A DNA stretch of 64,000 nt. Source: an uncultured bacterium (GTDB lineage: Bacteria > Patescibacteriota > Saccharimonadia > Saccharimonadales > Saccharimonadaceae). The translations under genes were made by a program, and so were the position numbers. Positions 34,201 to 35,961 of this stretch are shown here, piece after piece; the stretch's first letter is position 1; each line of letters begins with the position of its first letter. The stretch spans positions 25,149 to 89,148 of the forward strand of contig CAIUMO010000025.1 of the NCBI GenBank assembly GCA_903900345.1, read 5' to 3'. The notes under the pieces were generated by a model that saw only the letters and a list, made by a program, of their open reading frames with translations, was not told where the DNA came from and made no database searches.

Positions 34201-35961
34201 ATTACTGCTGCCGATTCATATGGAAATACAGTCACAAGTTATAACAAATCAGCAACTTTGAGTGACACAACTAATACGATATCGCCATCTAGCACTGACA
34301 ACTTCCGTAATGGAACATGGTCTGGATCGGTAACTATTACTCAGTCTGGTGATAATGTAAACCTTGTCGCAACCAGCGGTTCGGTCCAATCACCAAGTAA
34401 CTCATTCCAGGTTAAAGCCGGTGTTCAGCAAATATTCTTGTCAGTTGAAAGTGGCGCTAATCAGATAGGTACGGCTGGTTCTGACTTAAATACGCCATTT
34501 GCCGTTCGCGCAGTTGATATGTATGGTAATTATTTGAAAGATGTCAGTATAAATTATGATATTAGTTCATCACCACCTGATGCATCGGGTGTTTCTTTGA
34601 AGCCAGGTAATATATTGACGGATGTAGATGGTATCGCCAGATCGACATTAACGGTTGGTAACAAGGCTGGCACATATATTATCAACGCATCTGTTGATGG
34701 TCGCTCGTCGTCATCAGTTAACTTTTATGTCACCGCCTCATCAGCCAAGGTGATGTCAATTAAGATTTCACCATCTAGCACGACTTTACTAATCAATAGT
34801 TCGCAATTATTTACAGCCGAAGCTTTTGACAGCTACGGTAATGCAATTGCATCGCCAAAAGTTACTTGGACAGTAACTGCAGGTGGTGGTGAGATTAATA
34901 GTGAAGGTTTATTCACAGCCGGTACAACTACTAGATTATTTAAAGATACTATCATGGCAACGGTTGATGACGCGGTTGGCTATGCGACAGTTATTGTCAC
35001 TACATTGCCAGGTATAACAGCCGACAGCCGTGATGGTGCTGGTGAATTGGACCGATTATTCATAGCGCCGATTTTGCCATCGATTGAAACTGGTAAGAGT
35101 TTGGCCTTTTCTGTCAAAGCTGTCGATCGTTACAACCAGGAAATAGCGTCCAATGAACTAACCTATAGCTGGAAGGCAACGGGCGGTGATGTCAGTTCCA
35201 ACAGTGGTTCGCAAACAACCTTCACGGCTACTGATAAGCCAACCAGTGGTTCGGTCGAAGTAACTGCAACCCAAATCTCAAAATTAATTACCAAGACGAC
35301 ATCAACGGCAATATTAGTAACGCCAAATCCTTTAGGTTATATTGCAGTTAATACAGCATCAGATAAAGTAGTGGCTGGTCAAGAGTTTGAAGTGTCATTG
35401 ACAGCCTATGATGGTAACGGTAATGTTAACGAAAGCTTTACTGGTCCAATTGAGTTAAGTGACTCGACAAGTTCGATCTCGCCACGTACGACAGGCGGAT
35501 TCGTGAAGGGTGTTTGGACGGGTAATATCAAGATTAATAGTAGTAATGCGATGACCATTGTGCGTGCTACCGGTCAAAAGCTCTACGGCGTCAGTGACAA
35601 TATCAATATTGCAAAGAGTACAAGTGCCATGACTATGAGCAATGGTAATATTCTTGGTCAGGTGTTTAACTTTGTATCTAGTGTTGGACAGTCGATTGCA
35701 AACTTCTTCAATTCACTGTTTAGCGTATCAGCTAGTTTCCCTGAAACAACGAAAAATATTGCGGCGGCAGCTGTAGCCTCATTTGGCTTTGTGGCGGCAG
35801 CAATCGGCTTTGGTAGGGCAATCTCAACCGCTATTGTGGCGATTGGTCGTAACCCTTATGCTCGTCGTAAAATATTTGGAGCCTTGTTCATCGCACTTGT
35901 AGTCGGTTTGCTGTTCGCTGGACTAGCGTTCTTAATCGCAGGATTTATAAAATTCTTATGA
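28240..35961 (+). CDS. Giant secreted protein: NHL repeats, FN3-like domain, Ig-like stalk, C-terminal F0 subunit c-like helical hairpin
   Basis: 2573 aa; N-terminal Sec-like signal; many NHL repeats ([14 protein letters not shown]); alternating Ig-like repeats (TAKDxYGNxVTxF..., YDxYGNxI...YxW); C-terminal [68 protein letters not shown]. Confidence 0.9.
28440..30590 (+). repeat. NHL-repeat propeller region within the 2573-aa protein
   Basis: Recurring (V/I)(A/S)D(S/T)xNNRVL(V/I)(Y/W) units about every 50-65 codons. Confidence 0.9.
31290..35630 (+). repeat. Ig-like stalk with two alternating repeat types
   Basis: Type A (AGxxFxVxITAKDxYGNxVTxF...LSD...I.P..T..F..GxWxGxV) alternates with type B (I.P....VGTT....A..YDxYGNxI..LxYxW). 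Confidence 0.8.
35750..35961 (+). other. F0 subunit c-like hairpin domain encoded at the C-terminus of the giant protein
   Basis: GxG-containing helix 1, IxxIGRNP loop, second helix; no Asp/Glu in either helix. Confidence 0.8.

Follow-up and report, generated by a model that had tools for sequence, protein, structure and literature searches.

A subunit c-like hairpin at the end of a giant surface protein suggests a second, ATP-synthase-like motor in Patescibacteria

Why does a secreted surface protein of 2573 amino acids end in a membrane hairpin that resembles subunit c of the ATP synthase, and why is it encoded in one operon with F1-like genes? Patescibacteria are ultra-small, mostly parasitic bacteria, and little is understood of how they attach to host cells. 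The window, which is the whole 64,000-nucleotide stretch of a Saccharimonadaceae genome analysed here, contains a conserved set of 11 genes, all located on the + strand. The first encodes a TPR protein with an N-terminal membrane anchor (27490..28197; Pfam TPR, synteny in G194, G334, and G669), which is followed by the giant itself (28240..35961), in which a Sec-type N-terminus, NHL repeats, Big_1/invasin Ig-like domains and the c-like hairpin were assigned from the open reading frame and Pfam. A second giant surface protein of 2770 aa with kelch, Gly-rich, and fn3 parts comes next (35958..44270), its start codon overlapping the stop codon of the first, and then an ABC transporter ATPase (44275..45087; PF00005) and a FtsX/MacB-type permease (45090..46295; PF12704, PF02687). 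The remaining genes encode a b-like stalk protein of 170 aa, assigned by position and anatomy, with an N-terminal TM helix and then a long helical part (46430..46942), a delta/OSCP-like subunit (46914..47492; PF00213, E=1.8e-14), F1 alpha-like (47492..49027), F1 gamma-like (49024..49872; PF00231, E=3.9e-27), and F1 beta-like proteins (49872..51296; PF00006, E=9.1e-65), and an epsilon-like protein of 87 aa (51257..51520; PF02823, E=2.5e-9). All six F1/stalk-like genes that the original prediction had placed behind the giant in the same operon were thus recovered. Most of these genes overlap their neighbors or almost abut them, apart mainly from a gap of 134 bases 5' of the b-like gene. The b-like protein has orthologues in the other giant operons, and its link to canonical b is weak and runs via a cluster in G467. 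The same genome also has the canonical ATP synthase, encoded on another contig with its full set of subunits (a, c, b, delta, alpha, gamma, beta, epsilon).

The reading frame 28240-35961 ends exactly as had been quoted, with R2537-N2538-P2539 in the loop of a subunit c-like hairpin. In an AlphaFold model of residues 2330-2573, a helix predicted with low confidence (residues 2471-2497; 35650..35730) precedes the hairpin, which consists of helix 1 (residues 2502-2537; 35743..35850), the polar loop (35848..35856), and helix 2 (residues 2539-2572; 35854..35955). According to the alignment, helix 1 carries G2523 and G2525 as well as alanines at -16, -17, and -18 from the loop arginine, and helix 2 carries a leucine at residue 2557 (35908-35910), which is position +20. 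The motif R-N-P is invariant in all 31 diverse hairpins compared. The hairpin loops are positively charged, with about three K/R and almost no D/E, which fits a loop on the cytoplasmic side and an ectodomain outside the cell; together with the Sec-type start this agrees with the topology that had been proposed. Moreover, the hairpin is the best conserved segment of the giants, with 57-70% between orthologues versus 30-62% elsewhere. Like F-type subunit c (AtpE, PF00137), it is a two-helix hairpin with an R-N/Q-P loop, to which the giants add the glycine register of helix 1; it can be aligned to c without gaps over ~67-71 residues, and its neighbor genes are b-, delta-, alpha-, gamma-, beta-, and epsilon-like. 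Unlike c, the window hairpin ends a secreted protein of 2573 aa, lacks the carboxylate and has no subunit a in its cluster.

The search of other genomes for the same fusion was successful. Giants are present in five genomes of three families, namely the window genome, G669 of the same genus, G194 of the same family, G271 from a different family of the same order, and G334 from a third family in another part of the phylum. Of the five giants, four show the full 11-gene synteny, and the locus in G271 is cut by a contig end. The G194 orthologue is 54% identical to the window giant across 2560 aa, and the second, kelch/fn3 giant is kept beside the first in 5/5 loci. A hairpin-less homolog of the giant next to an intact F1-like cluster, which would have spoken against the original prediction, was seen in none of the five. 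Judged by sequence, the giant represents the large variant of a hairpin family that spans the Patescibacteria and mostly comprises proteins of ~260-300 aa. These small forms are secreted and have the same C-terminal hairpin, and such proteins, with ~270-330 aa, head second F1-like clusters in relatives. With a hairpin profile the small form was found in 174/295 genomes of the order, and in a phylum-wide sample the profile matched 64/290 genomes, where the weakest matches include some ORFs no larger than those of canonical c. Among the named carriers of the small form is the cultured Candidatus Saccharibacteria strain TM7i (CP075337.1), and a Nanosynbacter MAG is another hairpin carrier. In intermediate forms the hairpin is preceded by NHL repeats (G345, 497 aa) or by Big_1 domains (G546, 668 aa). 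The alpha gene adjoins the hairpin gene in 71/71 loci with at least 3 kb of downstream sequence, and 20/20 second F1-like clusters that were first found through alpha have a hairpin protein. The literature that was searched contains no account of this system for Patescibacteria, and papers outside this search may exist. In G194 the giant operon occurs along with a small-form cluster (L167, L165/L166). A frame of 11,043 aa ending in canonical F1 alpha (L102, G058:C1:22000-41000) was discarded as an artefact of masked X sequence and is not a fusion.

The gene content of these clusters bears on the idea of an export engine, in which the F1-like ATPase and the ABC/FtsX pair would secrete or assemble the giants, similar to the F1-related ATPases of type III secretion. 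F1-related ATPases are known to drive flagellar export, and the giant operon does encode an ABC ATPase and a FtsX-type permease. However, the ABC/FtsX pair is absent from most clusters of the small form, the giants have a Sec-type N-terminus of their own, and a c-like loop would not be needed for export, which makes this explanation improbable.

Comparison of the last 84 residues of the giant with PF00137, the check that came with the original prediction, gave a match (E=5.9e-5), but with 23.7 bits it narrowly missed the cutoff of 24 bits. The best match to the NCBIfam c-subunit models had E=2.1e-6, and the canonical c is the only other PF00137 match in the whole genome. A Na+/H+ exchanger (PF00999; L034:5367-7478, G032:C7) reaches 20.4 bits on PF00137, which is near the score of the window hairpin. 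Composition-preserving shuffles of the window hairpin never reached the real score against a profile of non-giant hairpins (0/5000) and equaled it once against a Saccharibacteria-only profile of canonical c (1/5000); when the loop was kept, 157/5000 reached it against the latter profile. PF00137 alone was therefore rejected as proof of c, as the window hairpin lies below the cutoff and the exchanger scores about 20 bits. Due to the exchanger score and the shuffle results a single-sequence match is insufficient, and the family-level evidence decides. A profile of 31 diverse hairpins, built without any canonical c, was compared with the whole PDB, and all 27 matches at E<=10 were c subunits, with a best E=1.1e-7 over 67 aligned positions. 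When 16,203 ORFs were scanned with a profile of 28 hairpins, all of them from non-giant proteins, the family itself ranked first, then the giants (E 2.6e-11 to 2.4e-8) and then canonical c (from E=3e-5), with no match below E=0.4 beyond these. Furthermore, one relative, the 668-aa Big_1 protein of G546, scores 30.7 bits on PF00137 and is thus above the cutoff. With the loop masked, canonical c was enriched among the matches outside the family and the giants (6/10 at E<1, a count that omits one truncated family ORF), each of them individually insignificant, which indicates that much of the c signal sits in the loop. Alignment of the small-form hairpins with Saccharibacterial c by hhalign was weak (probability 37%, 17 columns). 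The AlphaFold models of the hairpins overlay on c-ring subunits with a TM of 0.87-0.90 and an rmsd of 1.2-1.4 A; for the window hairpin and 9itt_I these values are 0.87 and 1.4 A at 28% identity, and on Chloroflexus c the model of the window C-terminus fits with 1.4 A and that of the TM7i small form with 1.2 A. Homology of the last ~68 residues of the giant to ATP synthase subunit c, as originally predicted, is therefore strongly supported by family profile, ORF ranking, and predicted structure. That the hairpin is a generic two-helix membrane anchor resembling c by chance would go along with the narrowly missed cutoff and the 157/5000 loop-preserving shuffles, but it is hardly credible, since the PDB matches of the family profile are c subunits only, the profile separates c subunits from other ORFs, the G546 homolog exceeds the cutoff, and the linkage to F1-like genes is strict.

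The residues kept and lost in the hairpins indicate what such a c-like part could still do. All five giants have the canonical-c register, i.e., counted from the loop arginine, glycine at both -14 and -12, alanine at -17, and either of these two residues at -18. The small forms are without the helix-1 glycines, with Tyr at -12 in 104/143, so that ring packing would have to differ there. The ion-binding Asp/Glu at +20 is present in 0/148 hairpins, with Leu in 5/5 giants, whereas canonical c has Asp/Glu at this position in 38/39 and nearby in 39/39 sequences. A gene for subunit a was searched in the 59 hairpin clusters with at least 6 kb of downstream sequence and found in none. A complex that lacks these two parts, the carboxylate and subunit a, would not transport ions. 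The hairpin might complete an ion-translocating Fo with subunit a of the canonical ATP synthase, the full operon of which is present in the genome; the consistent lack of the carboxylate, which canonical c retains, renders this very improbable.

The F1-like subunits are set apart from the canonical enzyme as well. Forty hairpin-associated alphas form one clade (SH-aLRT 100) apart from canonical ATP synthase, with the three giant-operon alphas as a subclade (SH-aLRT 100), in a tree that has some long branches and in which, within the Patescibacteria, the canonical references are Saccharibacterial only, next to E. coli sequences. The residues K155, E181, and R246 of beta and R376 of alpha (E. 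coli numbering), the latter being the arginine finger, are kept in all clusters examined including the window, and ATP hydrolysis by the F1-like clusters would therefore be expected. The lysine of the non-catalytic alpha P-loop is replaced by glutamine in the window and G194. In the clusters in which epsilon was found, only its N-terminal domain is left, in the window just the beta-sandwich, and this domain contacts the c-ring in ATP synthase. The N-terminus of alpha is shortened, by ~24 residues in the window; in ATP synthase this segment binds delta. In the clusters of the NHL-type hairpin proteins of ~500 aa (L184, L185; G345, G364) the beta-like protein has an N-terminal extension of ~190-230 residues.

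What has been kept are the parts that couple F1 to the rotor (F1 core, gamma, epsilon N-domain, stalk genes, R-N-P loop, and glycine register), and what has been lost are the parts that move ions, which is most simply read as a motor that uses ATP to act on a surface protein. We give a probability of roughly 0.6 to an ATP-hydrolysing F1 motor that has the c-derived hairpin of the secreted giant as its membrane partner and moves the ectodomain instead of ions. The motor would consist of alpha, beta, gamma, and epsilon with a delta/b-like stalk. In the manner of ATP synthase, gamma and epsilon would bind at the R-N-P loops, the hairpins would most likely assemble as a ring, and the work of ATP hydrolysis would pass through them, presumably by rotation, to the NHL/Ig ectodomain outside the cell, which may have a role in host-cell contact or in movement on the host cell. 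Computation supports this with the homology to c, the lost ion site, the missing subunit a, the fixed F1-like linkage, the single clade, and the intact catalytic residues. Against it count the alpha without its delta-binding N-terminal segment and the loss of the glycine register in the small forms. Moreover, helix 1 is the inner helix in c-rings, and bulky ectodomains would thus emerge at a crowded inner radius, which counts against a ring. A rotor ring bearing non-cytoplasmic domains is known from the V-ATPase, where, with the luminal accessory proteins Ac45/ATP6AP1 and PRR/ATP6AP2, one accessory TM helix lies in the interior of a ring that is otherwise normal and carries ions; in the present case the ectodomain would be part of the c-like subunit.

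The main rival to the rotating motor is a coupling without a ring or continuous rotation, in which F1-like would use the hairpin as membrane dock, and the surface protein would be pulled, released, or reset by a change of conformation that ATP drives. The glycine packing motif is gone in the small forms, and the F1-like systems of Mycoplasma serve surface proteins without a recognised c-ring (PMC12994834, PMC11864180), both of which would suit such a dock. The giants nevertheless keep the c-ring glycine register, and the parts of a rotary machine, i.e., gamma, the epsilon N-domain, and the stalk genes, are retained, so that we consider the dock possible but rather unlikely. Similar to the window genome, mycoplasmas with the Type 3 F1-like X0 ATPase (MIB-MIP) are host-dependent bacteria with a second F1-like operon beside a true ATP synthase (PMC12994834, PMC3369863), and alpha-, beta-, gamma-, and epsilon-like genes occur in the second cluster of the F1-like X0/G1 systems as well as in that of the window genome. 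The MIB-MIP Type 3 cluster encodes MMCAP2_0577 with a signal peptide, a large ectodomain, and two C-terminal TM helices (PMC12994834, PMC3369863). This two-TM ectodomain protein (MIB-MIP Type 3; M. mobile G1) is reported to have no known homolog (PMC12994834, PMC3369863, PMC11864180), and no similarity to c is reported for it (PMC12994834, PMC3369863); its anatomy is the same as that of the giant and the small forms, a likeness of description and not of sequence. The mycoplasma Type 3 clusters are reported to have a 12-TM protein and no recognisable delta and b (PMC12994834, PMC3369863), whereas the window operon has a delta-like gene and, by ORF list and Pfam, none for a 12-TM protein. The G1-ATPase of the gliding machinery of M. 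mobile is likewise an F1-like motor proposed to drive surface proteins, but it forms dimeric chains with the extra proteins GliD and PGK, and no c-like part has been identified in it; the membrane partner of its gamma is an open question for which candidates have only been named (PMC11864180). Rotary ATPases across Patescibacteria, in which an Fo ring without ion transport is fused to secreted proteins and turns extracellular structures, with the mycoplasma two-TM protein as the same part, can be put forward tentatively, and we would sooner doubt than assert this wider reading.

For the rotating motor, the data suggest that many Patescibacteria have a second ATP-synthase-like motor, the membrane rotor part of which, in place of the usual ion-carrying subunit, is the tail of a surface protein, a giant one in the window, and that ATP is spent on moving something outside the cell and not on pumping ions. 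This would be a rotary ATPase switched from ion transport to cell-surface work, and F1-like ATPases serving surface proteins would gain a concrete, c-ring-derived membrane partner, which the mycoplasma literature has left open (PMC11864180). As the cultured TM7i has the small form and S. epibionticum, another Saccharibacterium, can be studied with genetic tools (PMC10633639), the system could be tested.

The small forms also have features of their own. Their ectodomain of ~150 aa (L221:6956-7816, L083, L065, and others) has a predicted fold like that of phage capsid decoration or minor capsid proteins, with the Foldseek matches 8pkh, 8hdt, 9ocb, and 8qsy at a TM normalised by target of about 0.5-0.66; this predicted likeness does not reveal the binding target of the ectodomain. 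Five small-form members weakly match PF23982. Beside many small-form clusters a pair of surface proteins without a clear Pfam family recurs, e.g., at L085:4971-6843, one member having ~340 aa, with a weak match to bactofilin in one case, and the other having ~240 aa and ending in ...TLVVTGTY.
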